Assembly (NCBI GenBank): GCA_021464245.1
Contig: JADCRB010000118.1
Span: 2,978,056-3,042,055, forward strand
Direction of reading: 5' to 3'
From: Carallia brachiata
Lineage: Eukaryota > Streptophyta > Magnoliopsida > Malpighiales > Rhizophoraceae
DNA: 64,000 nucleotides
Position numbers and translations under genes: made by a program
The notes under the pieces: model-generated
The model's database searches: none
Seen by the model: only the letters and a program-made list of their open reading frames with translations
What the model was told of the DNA's origin: nothing
Shown here: positions 1 to 36,982 of the stretch, one piece after another
How positions within the stretch are numbered: the first letter of the stretch is position 1
Layout: each line of letters begins with the position of its first letter

Positions 1-236
1 CAAAAATCCAAATCAGATACAGTTTCAGTCTATCCAGTTCAAGAAAAAGCGGTGAAAATTATTTCTGTCAATATCAAACTCGTGCAGCCGTTGACGGAGT
101 CAAAAAAGGAACACTAATCGGAGGATCTACGGAGATCGACCCCACGTAAATTTTCTTTTACTTTACAATTTTTGTTTGTAATTTATTTTTGTATTTTCGA
201 GTTTAATTGTTTTAGACTCGAAATTTACGCTTTACA
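1..236 (+). repeat. 5' LTR of copy 1, R/U5 end only
   Basis: This matches the last ~236 bases of the LTR at 8721-9530 with about five substitutions and a 2-base indel (roughly 2% divergence). It ends in GCTTTACA, the inverse of the TGTAAA start of the 3' LTR. The rest of the LTR lies left of the window. Confidence 0.93.
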
Positions 237-242
237 AATTTT

Positions 243-260
243 TGGCACGCTCGGTGGGAC
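243..260 (+). other. Primer-binding site of copy 1
   Basis: TGGCACGCTCGGTGGGAC lies six bases after the LTR end. It begins with TGG, the complement of a tRNA CCA tail, as expected for a minus-strand primer site. The same 18 bases follow the 5' LTR of copy 2. The primer tRNA was not identified; Ogre relatives are reported to use an arginine tRNA, so that is the first candidate to test. Confidence 0.85.
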
Positions 261-351
261 ATTTTCACCTCCCATCTCTTGTTCCTTAAAAGTAAAAAAA
301 AAAAAGTAAAAGTAAAAAAAAAAAAAATTTTACAGGTGTTCAGCACATCAA

Positions 352-2374
352 ATGGCACCGAAAAGGAGTACAACTGCTGCCACAAAAAAGAAGGCAACGG
401 CTCCATTGCCTGCATCAACTACCCTACCTGGGTACGCAGGTCCAGAAACCCGGGGACGGACACAATTTCTTGCCGTCCAAACCCAAAAGAATATCGAAAT
501 GGAGAGTCCACAGCTCGCACAACAAGATCTCTCCCCTGACTCTCTTGCCGCATGGAGGAGTCGATCACCCACCCCGATCGAAGTCGGGGGCAACACGATG
601 AAGTCTGCTCAACAGAATCCAACTCATTCTGTAGAGATCCATACAGAGAAGCAGAAGAATTTCTCCCCTCTTTCGGAGCCTCATCTGTTGCCGTCATGAT
701 GACCAACACAACCAGCACAGAGGAAAGAATTTCAGAATTGGAGAACAAAATTTTACAGCTGATCAGAGTCGTGGAGGAAAAAGATCAACAGATCGCCGCT
801 CTAACAAAAAAAACCCCGATCCAAATTGATCCCGAGATCCGTGAGGAGCAACCATATCCACCCGGTTTCACTCCAGAAGCCACACCACCCGACGTCTTCC
901 CTGCAGAAAAGCGACCAGGTAGTTCTACACAACTGCCACCCTCAAATTCTATAGCTTCGCTATCTGTTCAACAATTGCAGGAAATGATAGCCAATACGAT
1001 CCGACTGCAACAAGCTACATCCTTCCAAGGATCGCAGATGTACGTCAAACCGTACACCAGACGGATCGAAAGTCTCAACATGCCCTTGGGCTACCAGCCG
1101 CCCAAATTTCAACAATTCGACGGACGAGGCGATCCCAAACAGCACATCGCCCACTTCGTTGAAACCTGCAACAACGCAGGGACTTATGGAGATCTCTTGG
1201 TGAAGCAGTTTGTTCGTTCACTTAGGGAGACCGCTTTCACCTGGTTCATAAATCTTGAACCAGAATCGATCGACAGTTGGGAACAGCTACAACGAGAGTT
1301 CCTCAACAGATTTTTCAGCACTCGAAGGACGGTAAGTATGATGGAGCTTACCAGCACCAAACAAAGGAAAGGAGAGCCCGTTGTCGAATACATCAACAGA
1401 TGGCGTGCCCTCAGCTTGGACTGCAAAGATCGCCTGACGGAGACTTCTGCCGTAGAGATGTGCATCCAGGGAATGCATTGGGAGCTGTTATACATCCTGC
1501 AGGGTGTCAAACCCCGAACTTTCGAAGAACTGGCGACCCGCGCACATGATATGGAGATAAGCATCCAAACTTCTGGAGGCACGGTTCCCATCCAGTTGGA
1601 CCAGCAAGGGGGCAGAAGGGAGATTAAGAAACCCAACAGCTCCGGAAAAGGGAAAGAAGTGATGACTGTTGAAGCCGCACCAGTAAAAGTGGGAGCTAAA
1701 GCCAAGGTAAATCCTCCGACCCAAATAACTCAGCCAAAACAACAGGAAAGGCGGAAGGTGACATTGCGAGAGCTGGAGCAGAAGCAGTATCCATTCCCCG
1801 ACTCAGACGTCCCCGACATTCTTGAACAACTCTTGGAGGCGAAGCTGATCGAACTCCCAGAGTGCAAGCGGCCGAATGAAAAGGATCGAGTCAGCGATCC
1901 AAGATTCTGCAAATATCACCGGATAGTAAGTCATCCAACTGAGAAGTGTTTCGTCCTGAAGGAGCTAATCATGAAGCTCAAAAGCCAGAATAAAATCATT
2001 CTGGACCAGGAAGGCGTAACCTCAGCAAACCAGACCACCATCACTTCAAAACCATCAGAAGAGGTGACACACCGTAAGGAGGAGCCGCTCGACAACAAAA
2101 AGTCGACAACGGAGAAGGTATATGAAGCTCTCCAAACCCTTCTCGCTAACCCTCAGCTGTTTACAGCTTTGCAAACAACAGAAGTGTGGCAAAATCAAGT
2201 CGGCAATACTCTTCAGACCTCAGCTGAACCTCTGCCATCAAGTAATTCCAGCTCGACGGAGCATCAGGCGGACCAAAATCACGTCGGATGTTACTCTGCT
2301 ATCTCATTTTCAGATGAGGATCTCCTGCTGGGGTCCAAACCCCACAATCGGCCGCTGTATGTATCAGGCTATGT
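352..2374 (+). pseudogene. gag: Retrotransposon gag (copy 1, frameshifted)
   Basis: The start is ATG 352 (MAPKRS), matching ATG 30473 in copy 2. The frame changes somewhere between about 600 and 690; the main open stretch then runs in the frame of 552-2468. A retrotransposon gag capsid-like domain (around 1140-1560, with FVETCNNAGTYGDLLVKQF and a WEQLQREFLNRFF core) is followed by a basic linker. A zinc-knuckle-like C-x2-H-x4-H-x4-C cluster lies near 1905-1950 (FCKYHRIVSHPTEKC), as in Tat gag proteins. A two-base loss near 2375 shifts gag away from the protease frame. The family role is to form the particle that packages element RNA. Confidence 0.85.
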
Positions 2375-3515
2375 GAGAACAGAAGGTCCGGCGTATTCTG
2401 ATCGACGATGGTTTGACAGTCAATATTATCCCAAAATCCACCATAAAGGAGCTCGGCATCGGCATTGATGAATTATCAGACAGCCGCTTGATGATTCATG
2501 GCTTTAATCAAGGAGGACAGAAAGCAATTGGGATGATTCGCTTGGAGCTAACTATCGGTAATCTCACTTCTAGCACTCTATTTCACGTGATTGATGCACG
2601 TACCACATATAAGATGTTGCTAGGACGACCGTGGATTCATGGAAATGGAGTTGTGCTCTCAAGCCTGCATCAGTGCTTCAAGTACTACAATGGTGGCGTT
2701 CAAAAGGTCAATGCTGACTTAAAGCCGTTCGATGATGCTGAATCACATTTGGCGGATGCAGTCTTCTACACCGACACAGACAATCCGGAGATCATTCCAT
2801 CAAAAGCTACTTGGACTGGGGGCATCCACAAAAAGGGAAAAGCTGTCGAAGAACCTGCCAATGCCCAACCCCAGGCTCCAACAAATGAAAAGCTGCCACA
2901 GCCAGCTGAACTTCGTTCGAAGGATGTTGCATCTTCAAGCTCCACTCCAGTCCTACGCTATGTGCCTAAGTCACGACGCTCAGAAGGTCAACCCCCTTTC
3001 TCTTATTGTATTGATCTTAAACAGGAGCAAGGTCATAGCCAACCAGAAAGAAGAACACATGAAGGATTTGATCCTAATGCATACAAGCTTTTGGCAAAGG
3101 CGGGCTATGACTTCTCAAACCCGAGCACAATGGGTACGCTGCCGTCCACACATGGCGCTACTTCTCAAACATCACAGTCCCGACCTGGCTTAGGCTATCA
3201 GGAAAACTCACCTGTGCGGATCACGCTAAAGAGCCGAAGCCGAGCAGCTGATGCACGTGCCATCACCACCACACCAAACAAGACAGGCTTATCCAGTCAA
3301 ACAAAGAAGGTGAAGTCAGAGGTTCTGCATTTCATGTCACAATCAGCGAGGAGGCTGAGTCTGACTCATCAGACGGTGAAGTTAAGGAAGCTCCCCCGGA
3401 ACTTGAAGATGGTGGCCAAGCAACTGTTGATGAACTCAAGGAGGTCAATCTTGGCTCTCCGGAAGATCCCCGACCTACATTTGTAAGTGCTTTACTTACT
3501 GCAGAAGAAGAGTAA
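2375..3515 (+). pseudogene. pro: Retrotransposon aspartic protease and linker (copy 1, defective)
   Basis: The retropepsin-type active site follows the gag frame break. Codons at 2404-2415 read D-D-G-L where copy 2 reads D-D-G-S, so the conserved D-(D/S/T)-G-(S/T) motif is altered by one base. The downstream LLGRPWIHG is the usual plant gypsy protease/post-protease segment. The linker lacks about 130-140 bases present in copy 2 (33140-33280). A one-base loss near 3272 shifts frame again, and CAA to TAA at 3513-3515 stops the frame leading into reverse transcriptase. This copy is unlikely to process its own polyprotein. Confidence 0.82.
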
Positions 3516-4830
3516 GAATATGTTCAGGTATTAAGTCAATACAGGGATGTGTTCGTATGGAGTTACAAAGAAATGCCTGGACTTGACCCAAAAATTGCGG
3601 TGCATCGTCTAGCAGTAAAGAAGGGTGTTCGTTCTGTCAAGCAGCCACAACGACGGTTCCGCCCGGAACTCATTCCACAAATCGAGGAGGAGGTTAACAA
3701 GCTGATCAATGCTGGCTTCATCCGAGAGGTCACTTACCCAACATGGATTGCCAACATTGTCCCAGTAAGAAAGAAGAATGGACAGTTGAGGGTATGTGTT
3801 GATTTTCGAGATCTTAACAGGGCCTGTCCGAAAGATGACTTTCCATTGCCCATAACGGAGATCACAGTCGATGCAACAACGGGTCACGAAGCATTGTCCT
3901 TCATGGATGGTTCTTCAGGCTATAACCAAATCAGAATGGCACTAGAAGACGAGGAGTTGACAGCATTCCGCACCCCAAAAGGTATATACTGCTACAAAGT
4001 TATGCCGTTTGGATTGAAAAATGCTGGCGCCACTTATCAACGTGCTATGCAAAAAATTTTTGATGACATGCTGCACAAGATTGTAGAATGTTATGTTGAT
4101 GACTTAGTTGTAAAGACTAAGAAGCGCAAAGACCACCTCGAGGATCTCAAGACAGTGTTCGAAAGACTTCGGCGGCATCAGCTCAAAATGAACCCTCTCA
4201 AGTGTGCATTCGGTGTCACATCAGGAAAGTTTCTTAGGTTCGTGGTGCGCCATCGTGGAATGGAAGTTGATCAGTCAAAGGTTGAGGCAATTCAAAAGAT
4301 GCCTGAACCTAAAAACCTGCACGAGTTGCGAAGTCTACAAGGAAAGCTGGCCTACATTCGCCGTTTCATCTCCAATTTAGCTGGGAGATGTCAACCTTTC
4401 CATCGGTTGATGAAGAAGGATGTCAACTTCGAGTGGGACGAAGCTTGCAGCAAAGCCTTTGAAAGCATAAAGAAGTATCTTTCCAATCCACCGGTCTTAG
4501 GTGCTCCAATTCAAGGAAAGTCGTTGATTCTCTACATTGCAGCGCAGGAAAGATCTTTGGGAGCCTTGCTTGCACAGGAAAACGATCAGGGAAAGGAAGT
4601 TGCCCAGTATTACTTGAGCAGAACACTAAATGGTCTGGAGCTGAGTTATTCGCCCATTGTAAAGACATGTCTAGCACTGTTCTTTGCCATTGACAAGCTG
4701 AGGCACTACATGCAAGCTCACACGGTACGTCTCATTGCCAGAGCTGATCCTGTCAAATATATCTTATCTAGACCAATCTTGTCAGGACGACTTGCCAAGT
4801 GGGTAGTAATCCTACAAGCTACGACATTAT
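3516..4830 (+). pseudogene. pol: Reverse transcriptase and degenerate RNase H (copy 1)
   Basis: The open stretch 3549-4901 carries the RT landmarks in order: LRVCVDFRDLN near 3795, PFGLKNAGATYQRAM near 4005, and the catalytic YVDD near 4095. The following Ty3/gypsy RNase H domain (about 4440-4830) reads LYIAAQ where active family members have an aspartate (LYxDAS), so its first catalytic acid is missing. This degeneration is typical of elements with a second RNase H. Two single-base losses near 4820 and 4848 move the frame, after which the ORF ends in unrelated residues at 4901. Confidence 0.9.
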
Positions 4831-4968
4831 CCACGTGCCTCAAAAGCAGTCAAAGGACAAGCTCTAGCAGACTTCCTTGCAGATCACCCTATTCCGTCTG
4901 ATTGGGAGTTCACAGATGATCTTCCAGATGAAGAGGTCTTTTACATTGAGACACTGCCACCATGGACG

Positions 4969-5616
4969 ATGTTCTTTGATGGTGCAGCAAGGCGTGATGG
5001 TGCTGGTGCTGGCATAGTGTTTGTCACTCCTCAACGACAAATACTACCATATGCTATCATTCTCGGTGAGTTATGTTCAAATAATGTTGCTGAATACCAG
5101 GCTTTGATCATTGGTCTTCAAATGGCTGTCGATATGAAGATTCCAACTATAGAAGTCCATGGAGATTCCCAGCTCGTCATCAACCAACTTACAGGATTGT
5201 ATGACGTGAAGAAAGAGGACCTTGCGCCTTACCATCAACGTGCTCGACAGCTAATGGATGAATTTGAAAGCATCACCTTGGAGCATGTGCCTCGACGAGA
5301 AAACACTCAGGCAGACGCGTTGGCTAACCTGGCCACTTCTCTTGCAAAGTCAGAAATCCAGGCTACAGTTGTTGCCGTATGCCAGAAATGGATAGTGCCA
5401 CAGAAGGATGATGAAGAAACTACAGCAGCCAACGCTGTCTGTACGTCTCGCGGAGGACGAGATTGGCGCCAACCAATCATTGACTACCTACAGCACGGGA
5501 AGCTGCCGAAGATCGTCGTCATAAGACAGAAATTCAACGACGAGCTCCCCGCTTCATATATCTCAAGGATGCTCTGTATCGAAGGTCTTTTGATGGAGTT
5601 TTACTTCGCTGCCTAG
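4969..5616 (+). pseudogene. Second (archaeal-type) RNase H domain, Tat hallmark (copy 1)
   Basis: Four acidic positions of an active RNase H are visible: D in MFFDGAARRDGAGAGIVF (from 4969), E in NNVAEYQALIIGLQMA, D in EVHGDSQLVINQL and D in TQADALANLA. The domain is a separate insertion after the standard but degenerate RNase H, as described for the Tat/Ogre lineage. It should remove the RNA strand of the RNA-DNA hybrid. The domain itself reads through cleanly and differs from copy 2 by about one base in 300. The frame leading into integrase breaks just after 5600. Confidence 0.88.
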
Positions 5617-6702
5617 GCAATGAAGAGGCAAAACAGGCTCTCACTGAAGCACATTCTGGAGTTTGTGGCGGACATCAATCGGGGCCTAAGTTGCACTTCC
5701 AACTCAGAAGGATGGGATACTACTGGCCAACCATGGTACGTGATTCATTGAGTTTGCTAAAACTGTCAAGCTTGTCAATTTCATGCGAATTACATACATC
5801 AACCACCGGAGCCACTGCATCCAACTGTCTCATCCTGGCCCTTTGAAGCTTGGGGTCTCGACTTAGTGGGGCCCTTGCCAAAGTCATCCCTAGGTCACCT
5901 GTACATCCTCGCAGCAACCGACTACTTCTCAAAATGGGCTGAAGCCATTCCACTTAGAGAGGTAAAGAAGGAGCATGTTGCCAATTTCATCCGGACTCAG
6001 CTGATCTATCGCTATGGAGTCCCTCGATTCATCATCACTGATAATGGTAAGCAGTTCTACAACAGCTTAATCGACAAGCTCTGCGAGAAGTTCAAGTTCA
6101 AGCAGTACAAGTCATCCATGTACAATGCCCCAGCAAATGGCTTGGCTGAAGCATTCAACAAGACCTTATGCAACCTGTTGCGGAAGGTAGTCTCTAAATC
6201 CAAAAGAGATTGGCATGACAGAATTCCGGAGGCATTATGGGCGTATCGTACAACTTACCGGACTCCAACACAGGCGACGCCATACTCACTTGTCTACGGT
6301 GTCGAAGCAATACTGCCGTTGGAAACACAGATTCCATCCCTGCGCATGGCTGTTCTGGAAGGACTCACACAGGAGGAGAATGCTCGCCTACGTCTGGATG
6401 AGTTAGAAGCCTGATGAAAGGAGGCTCGAAGCACAACAGCAACTTGAGTGCTACCAAGCCCGGCTCACCAACACGTTCAACCGCAGGGTCCGCCCTCGAT
6501 CTTTTCAAGTTGGAGACCTTGTTCTTGCAGTGCGACGGCCCATCAACATGAAGCATCGGCCTGGTGACAAGCTTACTTCCAAATGGGACGGGCCATACTA
6601 GTGCAGGAGGCCTACACTCACAACGCTTACATGCTGTCAGACCAAGAAGGCGTCCGAATCGGCCCAATCAATGGTAAATTTCTGAAACAATATTATGTGT
6701 AA
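5617..6702 (+). pseudogene. int: Integrase (copy 1, frameshifted)
   Basis: An H2C2 zinc-binding region is split over frames (EAHSGVCGGHQSG near 5645, CQ-C near 5765). The DDE core is open from 5866 to 6414: D in GLDLVGPLPKS, D in IITDNGKQF, and E in NAPANGLAEAFNKTL. The C-terminal domain (QVGDLVLAVRRP, SKWDGPY, GPINGKFLKQYYV) continues in shifted frames to TAA 6700-6702. The stop at 6412-6414 and the missing base near 6600 are both absent or different in copy 2. The product would insert the cDNA and make a 5-bp target duplication, as seen around copy 2. Confidence 0.88.
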
Positions 6703-7040
6703 ATATGTTTGAAAAAAAAAAGAAGAAAAAAAAATCAAAAAAATCAAAAAAAAAAAGAGGAGAAAAAAAAAATCAAAAAAGAGAAGAAAAAAAAAAAAAA
6801 GTTCGGAAGTCCTGATCTGAAAGTCCAAGCGAAAATCCAAACCCAAAAATCCAAACCCAAACACTTGAGCCCAATTCAGAAAACACAAAACCTAAGTCCG
6901 AAACCCAAACACTCAACCCAAATCCAAATCCAAAACCCAAACACTCAACCCAAATTCAATTCAAAGCCCAAAACCCAAAAAATTCCAAGTTCCAAACACA
7001 GTCCAGAACCAAGTTCAAAATCCAATCCAACTTCTGGCCC
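6703..7040 (+). repeat. Purine tract and C/A-rich minisatellite after pol (copy 1)
   Basis: An A/G-only tract (6709-6800) is followed by imprecise repeats of a CCCAAACACTCAACCCAAAT-like unit to about 7030. Copy 2 has the same two-part structure at 36943-37225 with different lengths. No credible coding content; the poly-lysine and poly-phenylalanine frames here are low-complexity artefacts. Confidence 0.8.
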
Positions 7041-7071
7041 GCATGAGTATAAACTGTGAACGGCCCAAAAA

Positions 7072-7079
7072 TATAAAAG
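7072..7079 (+). promoter_or_regulatory. Internal TATA-like box upstream of the WOX-like frame (copy 1)
   Basis: TATAAAAG in the context CCCAAAAATATAAAAGC lies 88 bases upstream of the WOX-like ATG at 7167. The same box and spacing are kept in copy 2 (37266-37273). The sequence between is C/T-rich and leader-like. An internal promoter is an inference. Confidence 0.45.
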
Positions 7080-7166
7080 CGACGGAGGGTTTGAGTCTGA
7101 AACTCAGCATCAGTCTCAATCGATCTTCACCACACACCAGACCTTTGCTCCTCTGCCACAAGAAAG

Positions 7167-7782
7167 ATGGAACCAGTTGCAGAACCTCAAGACAAAGGAG
7201 AAGAAAGGTCACCCCGCACAAGGTGGCAACCAACCATGGCGCAACTGCAAATTTAGAGGAAGTCTTCCACAACAATGGAGGTATTATGCCTAATGCATCT
7301 CAGATTTACCAACTTGTCTCACGATTGCGCCCACTCGGGGCAATCGAAGGAAAAAATGTGTTTTATTGGTTCCAGAATCGGAGAAGCAGGAAGAAACCAG
7401 CACTGAGAGCTGATTTTTCCAAAGAACAGTCTGCTGTTCCGATGGTAGATCCCACCAGTACAACTTCGCCGTCAAATGAAGCAGGTCCGAGTTCTTCCAC
7501 TGCAATGGTCTCTCCACGGTATGTTCATCAAAGCCGTAGCCCATGGGAGCATGCACGCTGGTCCTGGTGGTCTTACGGAGTCAGCCAAGGGTTCATCCCT
7601 CCTAGATACTTAAGTCTAGGAGGAATTTTTCTAGCAGAAAGGAGTTATTCCGGCGAAACTTTGCCTCTCTTTCCAGAATATTCCGCAGCATCAACCAGCG
7701 GAAAGCGACGTCGACGACGTCAACATCATCGGCCCACCAGACGAGGTCGAGCTTGACTTGGAGTTGCCTCGGGCCCCGCTAG
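7167..7782 (+). pseudogene. Retrotransposon-borne WUSCHEL-clade WOX homeobox gene (copy 1)
   Basis: The frame starts at ATG 7167 (MEPVAEPQDKGEERSP). A WOX-type homeodomain of 61 residues (about 17-77) follows: RTRWQPTMAQLQI for helix 1, ASQIYQLVSRLRPLG for helix 2, IEGKNVFYWFQNRRSRKK for helix 3. A one-base loss plus a substitution gives TAG at 7254-7256, but the downstream frame (from 7253) is open through helix 3. A WUS-box, TLPLFP, is at 7658-7675, and L-D-L-E-L is encoded at 7752-7766 in another frame after further indels; the ancestral stop is TAG 7780-7782. Cellular WOX proteins are plant DNA-binding regulators of stem-cell fate. The frame lies between pol and the 3' LTR in both copies, so it belongs to the element family. 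No intron is visible. Confidence 0.88.
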
Positions 7783-7804
7783 GACGGCCGACAAGATAAG
7801 GTGC

Positions 7805-7888
7805 AACGACTTTGGCAGCACACGGTAACGACTTCTGCAGCACACGGCAACGACTTCTGCAACACACGGTAACGACTTTCGTGACACG
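7805..7888 (+). repeat. 22-bp tandem repeat (copy 1)
   Basis: Three full units and a partial fourth of AACGACTTCTGCAGCACACGG-like sequence start just after the WOX-like stop. Copy 2 has two units plus a partial (37991-38052). Tandem repeats in the 3' untranslated region are common in Tat elements. Confidence 0.85.
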
Positions 7889-8064
7889 CGTCAGCCGCTG
7901 CCTCTTTTGTCTCTTATGCAGGAAAGGACGTGGAGGACCCTACTCGATTCTGCGTACCTTCTTTTTGACTTTTAAAAAAAAAAAAAAAATCTTTATCGTA
8001 TGTATATATACTTGCATTCCCGAGTTATAATACTCACCCCTCAGCTCTTCTTTCTCAAAAGAAA

Positions 8065-8590
8065 ATGGCTAGTCTCTGCACTTGTCTCAGGAAGTTCTTC
8101 GATCAAGAAGTTGGAGGCGCACGAGCTAAGAAAAGAAGGAGTAGTCTTCTCGAGGGATCCTAAAAGCCCTCGAAACTCAGTCTCCAACGCCATCGGTGTC
8201 ATGGAGTTCCAACTACTCTCCTTAGTTCACATCTATCGCAGCGAGCCGAGAAGCTGATCGTCCTCCTGGAACTACAAATGCAGCGACGTGCAGGGAAGTT
8301 CCAACTACTCTCCTTACGTCGAAGCAGATTGGAATCATCACATACCGTCTCTCTGTGCGCAGGTCTTAAAGTTCCAAGTGCTGGGCCTTCCTCTTGGGGA
8401 GGTTCAAGTTCTTTGCCTACCGGATCATCCTCACCAGAGCTCTGGAACTTTAAGACATATAAAAAATCCTTTGCGGGCTATGGAAGCTCGAATGCACCTG
8501 GAGCCAGAAGGTTAATTTTTATATTGGCTGGGTTGCTAACTTTCTCAAGATCGTATCGGGTTCCTATTGCGATCCAACAACAGTAGGCAT
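8065..8590 (+). pseudogene. Second extra reading frame, unknown function (copy 1, broken)
   Basis: ATG 8065 opens MASLCTCLRKFFDQEVGG followed by a basic segment (ARAKKRRSS), the same start as the 140-residue frame at 38233 in copy 2. Here a missing base near 8150 truncates it after about 30 codons, and the later sequence is diverged and frame-scrambled. No family was recognised. The basic RAKKRR patch could be nuclear targeting, but nothing else supports this. It may be non-coding leader sequence that is open by chance. Confidence 0.35.
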
Positions 8591-8706
8591 GGTCAAAGAT
8601 AGAAGACTCCAAAGATTCAATGTTCATCAGGACGTTTCCAAGTTTCAAACTGGACTTCAAGACTCGGTGCGGATCATTTCTGTAAAAATCTTCCTTACCG
8701 ACCCTT

Positions 8707-8716
8707 GAAGTGGGGA
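8707..8716 (+). other. Polypurine tract of copy 1
   Basis: GAAGTGGGGA lies just before the 3' LTR (TGTAAAC at 8721). The equivalent in copy 2 is at 38883-38893. It should prime plus-strand synthesis. Confidence 0.75.
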
Positions 8717-8720
8717 CATT

Positions 8721-9530
8721 TGTAAACATCATTTTCAAAAAAAAAAAAAAAAAAATCAAAATTGGCGCTGCCGATTTCAAAGTCGGCAACGCCAACTTTG
8801 AAAAATATTTTCAATTAAAAATATTCCTTTCCCATGTGATGTTCACATGGGAAAGGAACCCTATAAATAGGCCCGTGCCCCTCAGTTCAAAACACATTCA
8901 GCAAATCTGTAAACAGAAAAATTCAGAGAATTTGAGAGAAAAAAAAAATTTTGAAAATCTCTCAAGAAAATTTCTCCTTTTCTTACGTGCTTTTACTCTG
9001 CAGTATACTCTCCTAACTCCTTTTTGAGAGATATTTCAGGGGTAAGACCCAAAAAATTTGTTGTTTCCATTTCTAAAGTTATTTTTAAATTTATATTCTC
9101 GGATCGCTCTAGATCTGAATTTCTGAGAATATAGATCTAAAAATATCAAATTACTACAAATCCGGCTGGGATTAAACCTCATACGGCCCTCAGCAAAATC
9201 CAGGCAGCTCATCCGAGAACAAGTCTCTTCGACCCTCGGTGAAATTAAGTCAGATAGGCTCAGATCAGCTCTCTGCGGTTCGTAAACGTAGTCAAAAATA
9301 TCCAAATCAGATACAGTTTCAGTCTATCCAGTTCAAGAAAAAGCGGTGGAAATTATTTCTGTCAAGATCAAGCTCGTGCAGCCCTTGACGGAGTCAAAAA
9401 AGGAATACTAATCGGAGGATCTACGGAGATCGACCCCACGTAAATTTTCTTTTACTTTACAATTTTTGTTTGTAATTTATTTTTGTATTTTCGAGTTTAA
9501 TTGTTTTAGACTCGAAATTTACGCTTTACA
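8721..9530 (+). repeat. 3' LTR of copy 1 (810 bp)
   Basis: It starts TGTAAAC and ends GCTTTACA. The U3 region has an imperfect hairpin (8762-8795), then a perfect 16-base-arm palindrome (8824-8839 / 8843-8858, 3-base loop), then a TATA box TATAAATAG at 8862-8870. The second half aligns with the LTRs of copy 2, but the U3 half (8721 to about 8900) does not. Confidence 0.93.
8824..8870 (+). promoter_or_regulatory. LTR promoter of copy 1: palindrome plus TATA box
   Basis: The perfect inverted repeat TTCCTTTCCCATGTGA / TCACATGGGAAAGGAA ends 3 bases before CTATAAATAG. The position and symmetry suggest a dimeric factor site, or a hairpin if read through. Copy 2 has an unrelated palindrome in the same place. 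Confidence 0.6.
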
Positions 9531-18120: not shown

Positions 18121-19780
18121 ACACTCTTAAAATAGAAAACCAAACCAAAATTTTTAATTATGCTAAATTTGCAATTGAAATCGAATCCAATTTTATATAA
18201 TCTTAATTACTTTTTTGAAGTCACCCAAATGAAGAAATCATTAAACTTGATTTGCTTTTTTTTTTTTACTAGGAAGAAATCTTTTATTATCTAAATGTTG
18301 AGACTGGTTTTTAATTATCTTTTAATAATACTTCTCTGTCGTTTGCAAGGAGTTATTCACACAGAACAAAAGTAAAAATACACCTGCCAACATTGTCAGA
18401 TGCGACCCAAAACAACTTTAATTTGGTCCATTAATTGCGATTTTTTTAAATTAAAAATTGTAAATAAACTGAAAATTTTAATTTATATGAATTAAATTAT
18501 TTAATTATAAAATTCGGTTTAATTAATTAAAATTTCAATTCGATTTGAATTTATTGGTTCACCGGATTTTATGATTTTTTTTGAATAATCCTACAGTCCT
18601 ACTTTTGAGTGTTGATACTTGAAACTTGACACATTAATTGGTGTGTACGTAAGATATTAAAAAAAAGGAGAAATAAGTATAAAGTCCCATCATATAGGCT
18701 CAAAAAAAAGTATATATAAGACAGACGTATAATAATTAATTAATTATTTTGTGTTACTAATGTAATTAATCTTTATAATAAAAAATCGATAAAAGTACAT
18801 TTATTTTTATTATAAAATTAATTATCTAATTATATAAAATAATTGATTAATTATTATATATATATATATATGTTACACATCAATTTTTTTCCATATTTAT
18901 GCACATTTTTTCCTCCAAAAATGATTCTTGGATGCGGATGTGGGCGGACGCAGTGTTGACGACACATTAGTTGTTGTACATATTATTGTATGTTTGCTAT
19001 ACATCGAATTTAACTGTAAATTTTAAAATTTTTTATAATTTTTAAATTCTATTAACTTATGATGTGCAATAATACTGAAGTTGATATATAATAAAAATAA
19101 AAAATATATACAAAAACGTATTAACTCTACGTTAATAAATTTTTTTGTGCGTATGTATCAAAACTTTTTTTCGTCATAGAAACAGAAAAATAAGTCAAAA
19201 GGTCTCTCTTGCCTATCCCTTCTTTTGAACGTCTGCTGATGAGGTTTGACTTCTTTTGTTAGGGGAGGGGATTTTCCGCACGGATGGGGGAAAGTCAAAC
19301 AAAGAGTATCGCAACTCATCTCATCATAACGCATGCGTGGCGGTGTTGAATTATGGAATTTAGACAAATTAAACAAAAAAGAACCGAAAATTAGTAAGAT
19401 CTTAGTATATTAGCATTACCATAGCCGTAAACGTCACTCATAGTTTAATTCCCCTCCTACACGAAAAAAGAAAAAAAACAAAACAAAACAAAACTTAAAT
19501 ATTGATCAAAATCCCAATTTTGCCAAAATGAGTACATGCTAATTGTAAAATTTGTTTATAGATGCATCATTTTCCTAAAAGAAAACTTGAAAAGTGGAAA
19601 ATCATAATTTTGATGCTTCCTGTTAAAAAATTAGTGCTTTCTCCTACAGCAACTTATTTGTTACTTGGTCTGATAATAGACCAGCCAATGCTAAGTTTAT
19701 AGCCACTAGCATGCTAAATTTTATTTTTCCTGCATCTTTTGGAAGAACTTTCTAGTTTAATATCCCAGCCGTTGCTGTCC
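18121..19780. other. Intergenic sequence upstream of BAHD1
   Basis: AT-rich, partly colinear with 44660-45850 (for example GAGTGTTGATACTTGAAACTTG and TTGATCAAAATCCCAATTTTGCCAA). An extra A-specific stretch at 18660-19150 is AT-rich with an (AT)n run near 18855-18870. No gene seen. Confidence 0.5.
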
Positions 19781-19806
19781 TTGTTGAATGTAATTGCAGA
19801 GAAAAA

Positions 19807-21120
19807 ATGGCGAAATTTGAAGTAGAATTGATATCCCAACACGTTGTGAAGCCAAGTTCCCCAACACCAAGCCACCGTCGCCGCCACCAGCTCTCTTCTC
19901 TTGATCTAATTATGGTTCCAGTTTACCAGCGCTACCTCTTCTTCTATCCTGGAAACAACGCTTCCGACAACATAGAAAAATACCAACGTCTTAAGCAATC
20001 TTTGTCCGAGACCTTAACTCTGTTCTACCCTTTGGCTGGACGATTGAAAGACAATCTGTACGTGGACTGCAACGACGAGGGAGTCCAGTTTGTAGAGGCT
20101 AAAGCCAAATGCACAATCCTAGATTTCCTCGAAATGGGAAGAAACAGCAATGAGATTAACAAGTTGCTTCCGATTCCTGTTGGCAATGCTACTGTTCATG
20201 TCCAGGCCACCAGCTTTGATTGTGGTGGCATAGTGATTGGTTTCGCCATGTTACACAAAGTTGGAGACGGCGTGTCGGCATTTATGTTCCTCAATGCCTG
20301 GACCGCCATTGCTCACGGACAGAAATCTTCGATTGTCCCTCGTTTCGATCTAGCCAGGCACTTTCCTCCGATTAATTTACCTGGTTTTGATCCATGTGTA
20401 GAGGTTGTCCCAGATAACATTGTAGCGAAGTGGTTTGCTTTCGATGAGTCGAAAATAGCAATGCTTAGAGACAGTTGTGCTGATCAGAATAGCAGCATTG
20501 GAAGCTCTAAACGCCCGACTCGCGTTGAGGCCTTAACGGCTTTTTTATGGGGCAAGTTCATGGCTACCACTCAAGCAGAAGCAGATGGTTATAGTAAATC
20601 ATATGTTGTATATCATCCGGTGAACTTGCGTCCGAGAATGGACCTGCCCATTTCGGAGTCTAGACAATATTTTGGGAATCTGATAGCTGCGCCAGTGGTG
20701 GCAATGCCTGACTTGAATGCTAAGGATGGATGCTACGGCATAGTAAGCCAAATGAGAGAAACTATAAGGAACGTAGATGCAGACTATGTGAAGAAACTTC
20801 AACGAGGCGAAGCACACCTGAACACTGTGAAAGAAAGAGCTGAGGGATTTGTTGATCGAGAGGTGGTTGAGCTTAGCTTCAGTAGTCTTTGTGGGTTTCC
20901 AGTGTATGAAATTGACTTTGGATGGGGGAAGCCTTTGTGGGTTGGCCTGGCCCCCATTCCTCTCAGCAATGTAATTTTCCTCTTTGATACCAAAGCAGGG
21001 GGTGGCATAGAGATAAATGTTCACTTGAAGGAGGAGGACATGAACAAGTTTGAAAATGATGCTGAGATTGCCAGACTGGTGTCTCCAAGTCCTAGAAGGA
21101 TGAAACTCTCTGCATTGTAA
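19807..21120 (+). CDS. BAHD acyltransferase 1 (vinorine-synthase-like)
   Basis: A single-exon frame of 437 residues with the family's usual length. The catalytic HxxxD motif is H150-K-V-G-D154 and the structural DFGWG motif is at 370-374. BAHD enzymes are cytosolic and transfer an acyl group from acyl-CoA to an alcohol or amine of a specialised metabolite. The N-terminal LSSLDLIM and YPLAGRL blocks and overall layout are closest to vinorine synthase-like members. The substrate cannot be read from sequence. The start MAKFEVEL is shared with BAHD2 and no better ATG lies upstream. The gene looks intact; BAHD2 at 45868 is a paralogue of equal length, roughly 90% identical. Confidence 0.95.
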   Translation: MAKFEVELISQHVVKPSSPTPSHRRRHQLSSLDLIMVPVYQRYLFFYPGNNASDNIEKYQRLKQSLSETLTLFYPLAGRLKDNLYVDCNDEGVQFVEAKAKCTILDFLEMGRNSNEINKLLPIPVGNATVHVQATSFDCGGIVIGFAMLHKVGDGVSAFMFLNAWTAIAHGQKSSIVPRFDLARHFPPINLPGFDPCVEVVPDNIVAKWFAFDESKIAMLRDSCADQNSSIGSSKRPTRVEALTAFLWGKFMATTQAEADGYSKSYVVYHPVNLRPRMDLPISESRQYFGNLIAAPVVAMPDLNAKDGCYGIVSQMRETIRNVDADYVKKLQRGEAHLNTVKERAEGFVDREVVELSFSSLCGFPVYEIDFGWGKPLWVGLAPIPLSNVIFLFDTKAGGGIEINVHLKEEDMNKFENDAEIARLVSPSPRRMKLSAL

Positions 21121-21578
21121 GGCCTTCTTTGAGTTGGTTGAGTGGCTCACTTGGGCCTTAACCAATGTGATGGTGTTGGTGATTTAGTCTTGAAACAACT
21201 TGTTCAAGAGTCCTTTGTTGTATCTAAATAACCAAGTTGCAAGAAATAACCAACTTGTTCAAGTGTTGCAACTTTCTCCAGGTACAAACATCATGCAAGA
21301 AGCCTCTAGGATTGATAAGGCTATCCTTCCCTCTTACGATACAAACCCCATTTCATAAGTCACTCTGGCACATCGTTATCAGCTTAATCTCCCATGGCAT
21401 TTTTCCTGTTTTTCCAAGCAATCAAGGTGCAGAGGAGGCACTTTGGTGTCGGAAAGAACTTGATAAGATAATGACGTCATGTGCTGGCAACTATAAATTG
21501 TGTAACTAAAATTGAACATTATACCTAACTTACCATAACCAAAACTCTATAAAATAATCGCTCTATATCCCCTAAAGA
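21121..21578. other. 3' flank of BAHD1, conserved in segment B
   Basis: Colinear with 47182-47855: GGCCTTCTTTGAGTTGGTTG just after the stop, CAAGAAGCCTCTAGGATTGA, TTGTGTAACTAAA and CTCTATATCCCCT. It probably contains the 3' untranslated region. Colinearity stops at CTCTATATCCCCT; beyond this, segment B continues into an FLA pseudogene and segment A into a minisatellite. Confidence 0.6.
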
Positions 21579-21900
21579 AGAAAAATTTTCAGAAAAATAT
21601 ATGAAAATAAAAAATAATTATATATTTTTCTCAAATTTTAAAAAAAAAAAGGTAAGAGGAAAAAAAAAATTTCAGAAAAACATATAAAAATAAAAAAAAA
21701 TAGTTACATATTTTTCCAAAATTTCAACAAAAAGGTAAAACGAAGAAAAAATTTTAAGAAAAATATGCGAAAATAAAAAAATTAATTATATATTTTTTCT
21801 AAATTTCAAAGAAAATAAAAAAAATAAAAAAGTTTCAGAAAAATATATGAAAATAAAAAAATTGTTACATATTTTTCCCAAATTAAAAAAAATCTAAAAA
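21579..21900. repeat. AT-rich minisatellite, about 4 units of roughly 75-80 bp
   Basis: Each unit has a TTTCAGAAAAATATATGAAAATAAA block and an ATATATTTTTCYCAAATTT block. It is followed to 22140 by A/T-only sequence with repeated TTTTGGTTTCTAAAAA. Confidence 0.75.
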
Positions 21901-22144
21901 TAATTTTGGTTTCTAAAAATAAAAAATAAAAAAAATCAAAAATCAAAATTTCGGTTTCTAAAAACAAAAAAAAAAGAAAAATTTAGAATTTTGGTTTCTC
22001 AAAAAAATAAAAATTCAAATTTTGGTTTTAGAAAAAAAGTGAATTTTTCTTTTTTTACTTTTAAAAATTTTTTTTTGAGTTTTTTTTTTAAGAAATCGAA
22101 ATTTTGAAGTTTTTGTTTTTTTAAAATTAAATTAAAATTTTTAA

Positions 22145-22870
22145 AAAAATTATTGAAAACAGTCACATCAACAATCGTTTATTGACTTGGTAGATGATGT
22201 GGCAGAGTTCGTCTAAGGTGGCATGTCAAGTGGCTTCACATGGCAAAGTTAACGGCAGTTAACAGTAAAAAGTAATTTTCAACTACAAAATTAATTTAGA
22301 GAGTGAAATTCAATAAAAAAAAGAAAGTAAATAAAAAGACAAAATTCCCCGAACATGCAGAGCAGATGTTTATTTTATACCTTTATTCATCTCGCTCAAA
22401 AAGAATTTGGTGTTTTTTTTTTTTTTGATGCCTCTACAGCACTGGTGAATACTTGACGCGGCACCCAAAAAGAATTTTATTTTTGACTTAACAGTTAATT
22501 TCATTTATAATTTTTTGGTCTTTGTTAAATTTAATTTAAATTATTTAAAAAAATTTAACTTTAAGCGATTAGTTTTGTTAATTAAATTCAACTTTTCTAT
22601 TAAAATTTTGGTTAAATATACTTATGTAGTGCCACGTGACATAACACATCATTCATTTGGGACAGGTCAGTATGCCGCGTCAGCACATCATTCTGACGTG
22701 GCAATTTGTGCAAGCTTTTTTAAAAAAAAGATTTGTTATAAAAACATTAAAACGGAAAAAAAAAGAGGAGGAAAAACAAGCGTAATTGCTGTAAGCGAAA
22801 CCGTCGACAGGACGAATTCGCCGGCGAGGACCGTGCGTGCTTCTTTTTTTTCTTTTTCTTTGGAAAAACT
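22145..22870. other. Repeat-like intergenic sequence
   Basis: 22160-22280 has GGCAGAGTT, GGTGGCATGTCAAGTGGC and GTTAACGGCAGTTAACAG; 22630-22700 has GCCACGTGACATAACACATC and a CTGACGTGGCAA end. These paired TGGC/GCCA blocks resemble a foldback repeat common in dicots. No gene is supported; the open stretch 22515-22883 is low-complexity. Confidence 0.4.
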
Positions 22871-23400
22871 AAACTGTAGCTGAGTCCATTCTAGGTTTAG
22901 ACTTCCCACGGTTTTTCTATAGCCGATCCATAAATCTGCCTAAACTAGTGGCTCAGCTCACAAGAAAAACGAGCACAAGTGTATGTATGAGTACAAAATT
23001 CTTAAATGGTACTAAGATCTATTTAACCTATTATCACTACAGGAGACGGGCACACATGTATGTACGAGTACAAAAATTTTAAACCACCCGTCCGACAAGG
23101 AAAAGAAAAATCATGAACTTCATGAGATGTGTTTGCCTGAGTTTTTAGCGACCAATGATCCTGAATTTGAATCCATTTGTCTGTGTAACACAGTGCCAGA
23201 CACACTTGTTTGAATCCATTTGGTATCAATTGAACTTTTTTTGTTTCTTTTTTGGGAGCAAAAGTAGTTAGAGGAAGAAAGTCTCAAATGATCAATAACC
23301 ACATTCTGACGACTTGAAAAGGAAGCACCGTATAGCAATGATGCGGAAAAAATAAGCAGGGCCAGACCATAATAAACCAAGAAAAACAATTTTCATGTCA
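22868..23400 (-). other. Conserved block duplicated at 50573-51090; possible minus-strand gene tail
   Basis: About 520 bp are colinear between the segments, with an internal repeat of a GAGCACACATGTATGTACGAGTAC unit. On the minus strand both copies encode LVYYGLALLI plus a hydrophobic stretch and YGASXSSRQNVV, resembling a membrane segment. The later residues diverge in frame. No family was recognised; it may be a gene remnant or a non-coding conserved block upstream of the FLA genes. Confidence 0.35.
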
Positions 23401-25260
23401 TTCCATTTTTGGTCAGTCATTTCTGAACTTTCTTTCTTTTACAGAAATCCAATGAGCTGCCACAATGTTTTGATATGAACCAATTGACGCCAACGTCACC
23501 CTGATGGTGATATCGGTTAGGATGCTTAATCCATGTTTTAAAAAGAACAGCAAAAGCAACCCAAAAAAAAAAAAAAAGGAAGCAAAACCAGAAAGAATTT
23601 TACATGATCAATTAATTTCTATTCGTCAATGGGCAAGCCTTCGTGTAATGTAAATGTTATTTTATTATGATTTGATAGTCTGAGTTTAATGTGCTTATAG
23701 CTAATTCTCACTCAGACTTTACTAATGTTTGAGGCTCCTGCACTCATACGCACTTTAATCCATTTCTATTAGTTACCCATGTAAGGATAACTTACTAGAA
23801 GTTAACCATCCGAAGTTCGTAGTGATTGCAGTGATGGGCATTTTTTGGTACAGAAGTTTAATCCTACAGTGAGTAGCCATTCTCTAGAGACTTTCTACTC
23901 GTATTCCGGACCACGTAAGAAGAGTTAGACCGACCCCCGCCGGGCTAATTTGATTACCGGGTTGAACCGCCGGTTAGGGTTGAGGAGACATTATAGCCTA
24001 CACTGCGTCTGATATACAGCAATCTCCATTTTCCACAAACGGCGATTCTTCCGCAAATATATGTTCAGATCAGCACCCGTTACCCCACAGCTTCATTTTC
24101 CAGGGTTATTATTGCAGGAACTGTTTGAGAAGATGTGATGGAATGAAACGAAATATAATTTATTGAAATTTTTTTTCGGTTTTTTTGAGGAAAATTTAAC
24201 CAAAAAGATTTCACTATGTTCTAACAAATCCAAACAATGAAATAAGCATACATGTCATTCAATAATGTGGACAAAGTCTAAGAAATGTGTGTTTTTTTAT
24301 TTGCTAGCCTGCTTGGATATTGTGTTCAGACTTTAGTTCTTATTTACAATAAGTGATTTTAGTTAAAAGCTTTTAAATTTTGAAAAAATATATTATTACT
24401 TTATTATAAGTAATGTCATGCGTCGATCTCGCATATAGTTTACTCTGTCCAAGTAATGAGACTGTTAACTAAAAGGAAATCCATTATTTATGGCAGGTGA
24501 AGATCCCGTTTCCCTTTCCATTCCATCGTCGCTTCTTTTTTTTTGTTTAATGAGGGACACAACAAATAATTAATTTTTGCTACGAAGCCACAAGTTTCGC
24601 CATTACAGGGTGCCCCTCCGTGCCAGGCTGCTGAGTTTGGTGGCCCAAAGCCTTGCAATTACTCAAAATCCAAACCAGCTAAGCAGCTAATGAAATGATG
24701 CAGACATGATACACCTTTCGAAACCAAAAAAAAGAAGAAAAAAAGGCTTTGCAATTGAGCACTGCCATATTGCAGCCCCGTAAAAAAGACCAAAATTAAG
24801 CTTGATTATTTATTTATTTATTTATTTTAATAGATTAATCTATTTCTTGTAAAAATAAATATTATTATATTATAATTTCGAAGTAATGACAAGTTTGAGT
24901 TCATATAAAAAAAATAAAAATAAGACTACATATACTTCATAGACCTACACTTAAAACCACCCTTTTAAGATTTATTCATTACATAATGATTGCAGGGACC
25001 AAAAATGAAGTCAATTTTGCACAATTTTGCTCTTTCTTCGAGCGACAAAGCTGTCCTTCCTGCATTCATGCATGGATTTACCTGCCCAAAAATAACACCC
25101 AAACACACCCACCTCATCCAATGTTCTGAGTATTTCCCTGGTTTTTCAAGCAATCTGATGACAGCAGACAGCCACTGTTATGTATCTCTCTCTCTCTTTC
25201 CATCCACGCCTTCCACCTTTTCAAGTAGATGTGATACTAAGTAGTAACTAAACTCAATCA
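23401..25260. other. Intergenic sequence upstream of FLA1
   Basis: No gene recognised. 23690-24000 is less AT-rich, with GACCGACCCCCGCCGGGCTA and ACCGGGTTGAACCGCCGG, possibly a short dispersed repeat. A (TTTA)n run is at 24807-24825 and a (TC)n run is near 25185. Confidence 0.4.
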
Positions 25261-25434
25261 TGCAACTAAAAATTGCAAGTGGCACCTAATAATTTTTTAC
25301 TCTTTTTCTGCACCACAATAAAAACCCTTCTCCGTCTACATTTCATACACCAAGCAAGCACTTGTGCAACAACAACTACTTTTGTTACATCAAGCTCTTG
25401 TGCAAGTGCCACTGCACATAAACACAGTAGCAAG

Positions 25435-26214
25435 ATGATGCAAATGCAACCATCTGTTCTCTCACTCTCGCTTCTCCTTATCTTCTTCCATTTCTGCAGA
25501 ACATTAGCCCAGACACCGGCAGCACCGCCATCCTCAGCACAAGTACCGCCAATAACATCCGGCACCCCGGACATTGATAGCATCCTGACAAAGGCCGGCC
25601 ACTTCGGTATATTCGTCCGCCTACTGAAAGCCACTCAGGAAGATAGTGAAATATTCTCTGAGCTCAACACCACAACCAATGGAGTGACCGTATTTGCACC
25701 AACCGACGGGGCATTTTCGCTCCTCAAAGTGGGATCTCTAAACTCCATGAGCGATGAAGAGAAGACAGAGCTGGTGAAGTTCCACGTACTAACTAAATTC
25801 ATCTCAAGTTCCCAATTCCAGACTGAGAGCAACCCTGTGAGGACAAAGGCCGGAGCCGGAAACCGGGTATCGCTAAACGTCACGGTGATCGGAGCAACCG
25901 TGAACATAACCACAGGACTGACCAATACAACCATATCAGGCACCGTCTACTCTGATAACCAGCTTGCTATTTATCAGGTTGACAAGGTGCTACTTCCCTT
26001 GGCTTTGTTTACTCCCAACCCTCCGGCCCCGGCTCCGGCTCCTGGACTAACTGAGGAGAAGCCTAACAGGCAGGCGGCCACTGCTGCAGCAGAGACTCCC
26101 TCTGTTTCTAAGGAAAATTCTGGTTCGGTGAGTCTTATTTTGCAGAAGAAGAGCAGGGTGTTTTCCGCAGTACTGGGAATGCTTGCTGCTTGCAGCCTTT
26201 TGCTTGTAATGTAA
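25435..26214 (+). CDS. Fasciclin-like arabinogalactan protein FLA1
   Basis: A single-exon protein of 259 residues from ATG 25435. An in-frame ATG at 25273 would add 54 residues and bury the signal peptide, so 25435 is preferred. Order: hydrophobic signal peptide (about 1-26, ending TLAQ), a short Pro/Ala/Ser-rich segment, one fasciclin domain (H1 motif TVFAPTDGAF, H2 region TGLTNTTISGTVYSDNQLAIYQVDKVLLP), a PAPAPAP arabinogalactan segment and a hydrophobic C-terminus expected to direct a GPI anchor. N-glycosylation sites (NVT, NIT, NTT) are present. This is the group with one fasciclin domain flanked by AGP regions, acting at the plasma membrane and cell wall, often in secondary walls. It looks intact. 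Confidence 0.93.
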   Translation: MMQMQPSVLSLSLLLIFFHFCRTLAQTPAAPPSSAQVPPITSGTPDIDSILTKAGHFGIFVRLLKATQEDSEIFSELNTTTNGVTVFAPTDGAFSLLKVGSLNSMSDEEKTELVKFHVLTKFISSSQFQTESNPVRTKAGAGNRVSLNVTVIGATVNITTGLTNTTISGTVYSDNQLAIYQVDKVLLPLALFTPNPPAPAPAPGLTEEKPNRQAATAAAETPSVSKENSGSVSLILQKKSRVFSAVLGMLAACSLLLVM

Positions 26215-29412: not shown

Positions 29413-30222
29413 TGTAAACAAATAAATTAAAAAAAAATAATAATTAATATGATTGGCAGCCGCCAACCTTGAAGTCAAGGTTGGCAGCTGCCAACCTAAT
29501 TAAATGCCACCAACCATTTGGTTGGTAGTAGGCAAGTATGAGGGAGGCCTATAAATTGGCCTCTCCAATTGAATGAAATGGAGAAAAAAAAGAAGGTAGG
29601 CAGCGAAGCGAAAAAAAAAAAGAAAAAGCAAGCTGAAGAAAAGAAAAAAGTAAACAAGAGAGAGATATAAAAAAAAATTGTGTATTCTGTGATATATTTT
29701 TTTTTAACTCTTTTGAAAAAGATATCTCAGGTGCAAAGTAAAAAAAAAATTACTATTTCTATTTCTAAAATTATTTTTAGGTGTATATTCTCGGATCGCT
29801 CTAGATCTGAATTTATGAGAATATAAATTTGAAAATATCAAATTACTACAAATCCGGCTGGGATTAAACCTCATACGGCCCTCAGCAAAATTCAGGCAAC
29901 TCATCCGAGAACAAGTCCCTTTGACTATCGGTGAAATTAAGCCAAATCAGTTCAGATCTGGTCTCTGCGGTTTTTAACCATAATCTAAATGTCCAAATCA
30001 GATCTAGTTTCAGTCTACCCAGTTCAAGAAAAAGTTGTGGAATTTATTTCTGTCAAGATCAAGCTCGTGCAGCCCTTTGACCGAGTCAAAAATGGAACAC
30101 TAATCGGAGGATCTACGGAGATCGACCCCACGTAAATTTTCTTTTATTTTACAATTTTTATTTGTAATTTATTTTTGTATTTTCGAGTTTAATTGTTTTA
30201 GACTCGAAATTTACGCTTTACA
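29413..30222 (+). repeat. 5' LTR of copy 2 (810 bp)
   Basis: TGTAAACA...GCTTTACA. The U3 carries a double palindrome (29451-29496, left arm mutated to GATTGGCAGCCGCC), a second palindrome CCACCAACCATTTGGTTGG (29508-29526) and a TATA box at 29550-29555 (GCCTATAAATTGG). R-U5 aligns with copy 1. Confidence 0.95.
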
Positions 30223-30228
30223 AATTTT

Positions 30229-30246
30229 TGGCACGCTCGGTGGGAC
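30229..30246 (+). other. Primer-binding site of copy 2
   Basis: The same 18 bases as at 243-260, six bases after the LTR end. Confidence 0.85.
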
Positions 30247-30276
30247 AACTTCACCTCCCATCTCTTGTTCCTTAAA

Positions 30277-30452
30277 AAAAAAAAAAAAAGAGGTAAAAGG
30301 GGAGCCGAGAGAAAAAAAAAGTAAAAAAAAGTAAAAAAAAAGTAAAAAAAAAGTAAAAAAAAAAGTAAAAGTAAAAGTAAAAAAAAGTAAAAAGTAAAAA
30401 AAAAAGTAAAAAGTAAAAAGTAAAAAAAAAGTAAAAAAAAAAAAAAAAATTT
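30277..30452 (+). repeat. GTAAAA-type microsatellite in the gag leader (copy 2)
   Basis: About 170 bases of irregular (A)nGT repeats, expanded relative to about 40 bases at 291-330 in copy 1. The leader between primer site and gag is length-variable in this family. Confidence 0.85.
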
Positions 30453-30472
30453 ACAGGTGTTCAGCACATCAA

Positions 30473-32450: not shown

Positions 32451-32474
32451 CGGCCGCTGTATGTATCAGGCTAT

Positions 32475-32990
32475 GTGAAAGAACAGAAGGTCCGACGTAT
32501 TCTGATCGACGATGGCTCGACAGTCAATATTATCCCAAAATCCACCATAAAGGAGCTCGGCATCGGCATTGATGAATTATCAGACAGCCGCTTGATGATT
32601 CATGGCTTTAATCAAGGAGGACAGAAAGCAATTGGGATGATTCGCTTGGAGCTAACTATCGGTAATCTCACTTCTAGCACTCTATTTCACGTGATTGATG
32701 CACGTACCACATATAAGATGTTGCTAGGACGACCGTGGATTCATGGAAATGGAGTTGTGCTCTCAAGCCTGCATCAGTGCTTCAAGTACTACAATGGTGG
32801 CGTTCAAAAGGTCAATGCTGACTTAAAGCCGTTCGATGATGCTGAATCACATTTGGCGGATGCAGTCTTCTACACCGACACAGACAATCCGGAGATCATT
32901 CCATCAAAAGCTACTTGGACTGGGGGCATCCACAAAAAGGGAAAAGCTGTCGAAGAACCTGCCAATGCCAACCCAGGCTCCAACAAATGA
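32475..32990 (+). pseudogene. pro: Retrotransposon aspartic protease (copy 2)
   Basis: The open stretch has the retropepsin motif ILIDDGSTVNI; the D-D-G-S codons are 32508-32519. LLGRPWIHGNG lies downstream, as in plant gypsy proteases. The catalytic motif is intact here, unlike copy 1 (DDGL). The frame ends at 32990 after base losses in the linker. The linker 33140-33280 contains about 130-140 bases that copy 1 lacks. Confidence 0.85.
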
Positions 32991-33445
32991 AAAGCTGCCA
33001 CAGCCTGCTGAACTCGTCCGAAGGATGTTGCATCTTCAAGCTCCACTCCAGTCCTACGCTATGTGCCGAAGTCACGACGCTCAGAAGGTCAACCCCCTTT
33101 CTCTTATTGTATTGATCATAAACAGGAGCAAGGACATAGCCAACCCAAGACAAAAGAGCTGCACAACCTGAAGGAGACTTACACTCTGCCGATACCAAAG
33201 ATTGAGCCGGTTTTGTCTCAAAACCATTAAAAGGCTTCGTCAAACCACACACGGGGGCAGTCGAAGGCGGCTCACTTCCAGAAAGAAGAACACATGAAGG
33301 ATTTGATCCTAATGCATACAAGCTTTGGCAAGGCGGGCTATGACTTCTCAAACCCGAGCACAATGGGTACGCTGCCGTCCACACATGGGCCGCTTCTCAA
33401 ACATCACAGTCCCGACCTGGCTTAGGCTATCAGGAGAAGTCACCT

Positions 33446-35060: not shown

Positions 35061-35199
35061 TTGTCTACGTGCCTCAAAAAGCAGTCAAAGGACAAGCTCT
35101 AGCAGACTTCCTTGCAGATCACCCTATTCCGTCAGATTGGGAGTTCACAGATGATCTTCCAGATGAAGAGGTCTTTTACATTGAGACACTACCACCATG

Positions 35200-36936: not shown

Positions 36937-36940
36937 ATAT

Positions 36941-36942
<2 letters not shown>

Positions 36943-36982
<40 letters not shown>

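Follow-up and report, generated by a model that had tools for sequence, protein, structure and literature searches.

Extra genes of plant long terminal repeat (LTR) retrotransposons are mostly of unknown origin and function. The closest described systems are the extra open reading frames (ORFs) of the Tat-type elements Retand and Grande, in which the added gene lies between pol and the 3' LTR and its product is probably nuclear and DNA-binding (PMC11963269, PMC7264820). These ORFs are antisense and either encode TRP28 or have no clear relatives, and none of the sense ORFs surveyed in the available part of PMC11963269 carried known domains. Host-gene transductions such as Bs1 (cited in PMC7264820) likewise place cellular coding sequence within an LTR element, in one or few copies according to that source. 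The locus analysed here is a stretch of 64,000 nucleotides from Carallia brachiata (contig JADCRB010000118.1, positions 2,978,056 to 3,042,055, forward strand), called the window. It holds two LTR elements, copy 1 and copy 2, with a WUS-type homeobox (WOX) frame between pol and the 3' LTR. Unlike the extra genes of Retand and Grande, this one lies in sense and encodes a recognisable host-type transcription factor, and unlike the transduced genes it occurs in hundreds of copies, under selective constraint, in elements that encode pol. On balance we favour, with modest confidence, the reading that a Tat-type family carries an intronless WUS-type frame, likely captured as a transcript, whose product is likely a nuclear repressor that would favour the stem-cell state and entry into the germline. 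In the literature covered, by titles and the starts of abstracts and with subscription papers mostly outside the scope, no description of a WOX gene in a retrotransposon was found; the strings homeo, WUS and WOX were absent from the searched portions of PMC11963269 and PMC13317346, and homeo from that of PMC6317226.

In both window copies the homeobox region is sense-oriented, after pol and before the 3' LTR, with the following features.

7167 to 7799, plus strand: WUS-type homeobox region of copy 1, frame-disrupted (sequence)
7215 to 7400, plus strand: homeodomain of copy 1, frame change near 7250 (Pfam Homeodomain 7.3e-08 on the frame 6896 to 7756)
7658 to 7675, plus strand: WUS-box TLPLFP of copy 1 (sequence)
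7752 to 7766, plus strand: EAR-like LDLEL of copy 1, in a frame other than that of the WUS-box (sequence)
37362 to 37968, plus strand: WUS-type homeobox region of copy 2, broken at sites other than those of copy 1 (alignment)

An earlier note on this DNA had reported a WOX homeodomain and an exact TLPLFP between integrase and the 3' LTR of copy 1, and both were seen in the sequence. It had taken them as one frame at 7167 to 7782; the homeobox content stood, and the single open frame did not, as copy 1 starts at the ATG at 7167, changes frame near 7250 within the homeodomain and does so again past the WUS-box. The start of the interval was correct, and the end was close to the actual one near 7799. 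The EAR-like LDLEL had been overlooked, and copy 2 has a homeobox frame as well. Alignment showed four non-triplet indels in copy 1; copy 2 has two such indels and one stop. Further members were sought in the host genome (337.5 Mb on 164 contigs), and a family sample of 42 copies was formed from 40 copies found with a copy-1 frame and the two window copies. The 40 were chosen by protein similarity to that one frame, and such a choice can lower omega.

The frame was open from ATG to stop in 5 of the 42 copies (four distinct sequences), between pol and LTR as the earlier note had proposed to look for, and another three were open and lacked a start codon. The open frames contained 203-207 codons and are predicted to encode a short N-terminus, a homeodomain, a linker of 80-90 residues, a WUS-box, an acidic stretch and an LDLEL tail. 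A WOX-type homeodomain and a WUS-box, the features of the WUS clade, were thus both found, together with a WUSCHEL-like EAR-type LxLxL near the C-terminus. The profile and protein searches suggested by the earlier note returned clear WOX matches: an open copy matched Pfam Homeodomain at E 2.3e-12 (the opening 62 codons of copy 2 did so below the cut-off), the top solved structures were WUSCHEL (PDB, E 2.7e-18) and STENOFOLIA (6.7e-16), and all 45 protein matches (45/45) contained a homeodomain, the best named ones being WUS and WOX2. A 32-base homeobox pattern over helix 3, allowing up to 3 mismatches, was found at 803 places in the genome against 0 for the reversed pattern, and a chance match is excluded because of this count and the Pfam and WUSCHEL scores. 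Identity never exceeded 53%, and protein searches gave no close relative (best 53%); in viral contigs searched for relatives, none of 6 pattern matches was confirmed.

The homeodomain was identical to Arabidopsis WUS at 33 of 65 positions. According to the available part of PMC7203112, R38, N90 and R94 are the base contacts of WUS, and an extra residue at position 54 is WUS-specific. These contacts were retained in 41/42, 42/42 and 39/42 copies, respectively, and the extra residue (pi-bulge) was H in 40/42 and Y in 2/42; a Spinacia WOX2 has an extra residue too, hence the insertion is less than fully diagnostic. The exact TLPLFP was present in 33/42 copies, including both window copies, and LDLEL in 37/42. 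Among the five open copies the WUS-box was exact in three (two of these identical), TLSLFP in one and ILPLFP in one. The likeness to WUSCHEL therefore comprises R38, N90, R94, the extra residue, the WUS-box and the EAR-like tail, whereas about half of the homeodomain residues differ, helix 3 reads FQNRRSRKK against FQNHKARER in WUSCHEL, the linker is short, there is no intron, and the position in the tree is outside WUS.

The search with the copy-1 frame gave at least 138 rows in the host genome, and that with codons 1-62 of copy 2 at least 150 rows, each with at least 95% identity. The order reverse transcriptase, second RNase H (aRH), integrase, WOX and downstream LTR was the same in 39/42 copies over many contigs, which bears out the Tat-lineage element with a WUS-clade homeobox gene that the earlier note had proposed. 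The remaining 3/42 copies (L020, L026 and L038) lacked pol and retained an LTR, part of gag and WOX; they share one deletion, from a gag breakpoint at copy-1 position 2062 to the stretch preceding WOX. Since they lack pol, they must have moved using pol from other elements. It is extremely improbable that the homeobox sequence is a nested host gene or an assembly artefact. Single-base indels are many and substitutions few in several copies, and these could be assembly errors; the identical order over many contigs and the 803 places argue otherwise, as do the completeness of copy 2 with its target duplication and the host WUS genes, which are separate loci (66-73% identity to Hibiscus WUS, against about 40-46% for the element copies). 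Nested insertion of a host gene was refuted on the family-wide order, the target duplication and the separate loci.

A codon model fitted to the family gave an omega of 0.34 (p 7.5e-6) for the homeodomain, compared with 0.31 for integrase and 0.24 for reverse transcriptase. Codons 161-207 gave 0.54 (p 0.0067), the N-terminus 0.55 (not significant), and the linker 0.98 (p 0.89), or 1.03 when the analysis was split by the copy-selecting frame. Codons 29-78 gave 0.41 (p 0.001). Outside the copy-selecting frame, codons 2-28 and 174-207 together gave 0.52 (p 0.0017) and the tail codons 174-207 alone 0.26 (p 1.5e-6), while the wrong frames of these segments gave 0.91 and 2.11; the +1 frame of the whole gave 1.08. 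Variants common to at least three copies were also counted, with tests against neutral expectation and a Fisher test against singletons. The homeodomain contained 4 replacement and 9 silent shared variants (p 0.0036 against neutral); for the whole frame the counts were 45 and 39 (p 0.0013 against neutral, p 0.0031 against singletons). This was read as purifying selection on the homeodomain and the C-terminal tail, with the linker between them free, so that selection falls exactly on the DNA-binding and the C-terminal repressor-like modules.

Two WUS-like loci were found in the host genome, with 73% and 66% identity to Hibiscus WUS. In both, the homeodomain frame and an ETLPLFP frame are separated by 0.7-0.8 kb, with AG before the ETLPLFP frame; from the sequence, the gap appears to consist of one or more introns. 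The element frame is continuous where the host loci appear interrupted, which is consistent with capture from a host WUS-clade transcript and does not demonstrate it. The intronless frame cannot separate transcript from genomic capture, because retrotransposition splices out sense introns anyway. A WOX phylogeny of the kind called for by the earlier note was built, and it did not tie the donor to any one of WUS, WOX1, WOX2 and WOX3: in the approximately unbiased (AU) test, union was not rejected with WUS (0.28), WOX1 (0.41), WOX2 (0.23) or WOX3 (0.39). The eight nearest proteins by substitution score were all WUS, and the WUS-box, the tail and the extra residue favour WUS as the relative with moderate confidence.

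Several results weigh against the favoured reading of a captured, functional WUS-type repressor. In the homeodomain tree the element's branch was long and fell outside the WUS clade, and by identity counts WOX3 (34-35) was equal to or above WUS (31-34). The homeobox frame was broken in 37/42 copies, and 0/5 were open in a sample chosen by DNA pattern only (n=5). Pfam EAR remained below threshold in the open copies (E 0.58, 0.071 and no match in the third). The upstream non-coding control in the copy-selecting frame gave an omega of 0.74 (p 0.066), so that the whole-frame value of 0.73 is no evidence by itself, and the +2 frame was above 1 (omega 1.47, p 0.0006). By shared variants, the homeodomain alone was not distinct from singletons (Fisher p 0.13), and the C-terminal part (10 replacement, 6 silent) was not significant (p 0.39 to 0.43). 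Divergence between copies at four-fold sites was 0.074 for WOX and 0.037 for integrase, with a correlation of 0.37; it looks as if the 3' part had a separate history. WUS motifs (TGAA, TAAT, TTAATGG and CACGTG) were not enriched in three LTRs in 200 shuffles each.

The broken frames, the absence of open frames in the less biased sample, the unconstrained linker and a whole-frame omega not below the non-coding control would suit a passenger, acquired in a single capture and then carried from copy to copy while serving no function. We regard this as distinctly unlikely, as the homeodomain omega equals that of integrase, the tail gave 0.26 outside the selecting frame, the +1 frame was unconstrained, two functional modules were retained as the linker between them drifted, and three pol-deleted derivatives with one common breakpoint retained WOX.

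The two window copies are, by the aRH placed between RNase H and integrase, Tat-type Ty3/gypsy elements. The second RNase H is a mark of Tat, and this position is typical of Ogre and Retand (PMC6317226, available part). Copy 1 spans window positions 1-9530 as a single LTR element with an incomplete left LTR, and its Pfam order is gag, reverse transcriptase, RNase H, second RNase H and integrase. Copy 2 is a complete element at 29413-39708 with a TTTAC target duplication. The features outside the homeobox region are as follows.

1 to 236, plus strand: copy 1 left LTR, 3' end only, cut by the window edge (97.4% identity with 9296 to 9530)
540 to 2468, plus strand: copy 1 gag frame (Pfam Retrotrans_gag 5.9e-15)
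2377 to 3486, plus strand: copy 1 protease-like frame, weak (gag-asp_proteas E 0.0032, under the curated cut-off)
3516 to 4901, plus strand: copy 1 reverse transcriptase and RNase H (RVT_1 1.9e-32, RT_RNaseH_2 1.5e-21)
4810 to 5616, plus strand: copy 1 second RNase H (aRH), in the interval between RNase H and integrase (RVT_3 2.6e-25)
5761 to 6414, plus strand: copy 1 integrase core (rve 4.3e-11)
7019 to 7079, plus strand: copy 1 promoter-like block, 61 nucleotides without a variant common to at least three copies (GGCCCA at 7062 to 7067, TATAAAAG at 7072 to 7079)
8721 to 9530, plus strand: copy 1 3' LTR (TGTAAAC...TTTACA)
29413 to 30222, plus strand: copy 2 5' LTR, TTTAC just before it (94.6% identity with the 3' LTR, 35 mismatches over 815 aligned positions)
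37266 to 37273, plus strand: copy 2 TATAAAAG 5' of WOX (sequence)
38898 to 39708, plus strand: copy 2 3' LTR, followed by TTTAC, the 5-bp target duplication (sequence)

The antisense TRP28 (PF04195) ORF that marks Retand was sought in copy 1, and none of the six antisense ORFs there (82-110 amino acids) matched Pfam at E 0.1 or below. The available part of PMC6317226 reports a plant mobile domain for 57% of Ogre elements; the copy-1 sense ORF preceding gag (316-696) gave a sub-threshold, unrelated match only.

The promoter-like block at 7019-7079 is the longest run of its kind within 6720-8728 and was equalled in 97 of 5000 shuffles; rarer variants occurred in 17 of its 61 columns. The TATA-containing TATAAAAG was present in 40/42 copies at a median of 87 nucleotides 5' of the ATG. 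Among 35 motif-by-region tests, the sole standout was TGGGC[CT] in the spacer between pol and WOX (3 against 0.37 expected, 0/200 shuffles, uncorrected). The extra gene of Grande has an internal promoter of its own (PMC7264820, in the portion available), and the conserved block fits a putative internal promoter of the WOX frame, a candidate counterpart to that of Grande. On the other side of the frame, a 22-nucleotide unit of the GCAACGACTTTGGCAGCACACG type is tandemly repeated directly 3' of WOX at 7803-7890. A second sense frame of variable length, starting MASLCTCLRKFFDQEVGG, follows 3' of WOX (window positions 8065 onward and 38233 onward); for the ORF with its ATG near 8065, the shared variants (66 replacement, 22 silent) gave no protein-level constraint.

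Under the favoured reading, the TATA-containing block would act as promoter of the homeobox frame and the frame would be translated. The predicted protein would be nuclear, bind WUS-like sites and recruit co-repressors, and as a WUS-like repressor it may keep element-bearing cells in the stem-cell state or return them to it. That state would raise the odds of new insertions reaching the germline, a benefit that would be visible to selection. Gametes derive from shoot stem cells, where transposon insertions must be avoided (PMC7560203, available part).

The homeobox protein could instead be an accessory regulator that serves the transcription, RNA or integration of the element itself and not the stem-cell fate of the host. 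A similar role has been proposed for other Tat-type extra ORFs, and the parts under selection are DNA-binding and repressor-like; the unenriched WUS motifs in the three LTRs speak against it, weakly, since the element protein may prefer another site. We consider it fairly unlikely. A specific candidate, autoregulation via WUS sites within the LTR, was tried and rejected for lack of enrichment. WUS has an antiviral role, and the element protein might act in counter-defence by imitating WUS, disturbing or exploiting the process by which WUS keeps viruses and transposons out of stem cells. The WUS-like contacts and the divergent linker would suit a decoy, yet the kept repressor motifs point to an active protein and not a passive decoy, and we hold this very unlikely.

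Acutely transforming animal retroviruses carry growth or fate regulators of host origin. The family resembles them in its host-origin fate regulator and in pol-deleted derivatives that retain the gene (3/42), and differs in being a vertically inherited plant element whose effect on cells is predicted. The wider form of the favoured reading, held tentatively and as somewhat doubtful, is that the element made a stem-cell master regulator its third gene and is a heritable counterpart of the oncogene-bearing retroviruses, reprogramming the cells that express it towards stem-cell identity in order to reach the germline. If this is true, the hundreds of element copies would supply the host genome with a store of WUS-like repressors. 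The family makes the route of plant elements into the germline directly testable. Meristem genes may also be miscounted, or silenced along with such element copies.

Rfam and tRNA scans of the whole window gave no match. Relatives of the copy-1 gag were 43-66% identical and mostly from eudicots (best 120 of 568). One gag protein recorded under Salmonella enterica (P0096) had 65% identity to it, and the record is probably plant contamination of a bacterial entry. Pairs of BAHD-type transferase and fasciclin genes lie on either side of copy 2, at 19756-26211 and 45757-52447, and are apparently a duplicated segment. Exons of a BIRD-IDD zinc-finger transcription factor were located on the minus strand at window positions 57336-59044.
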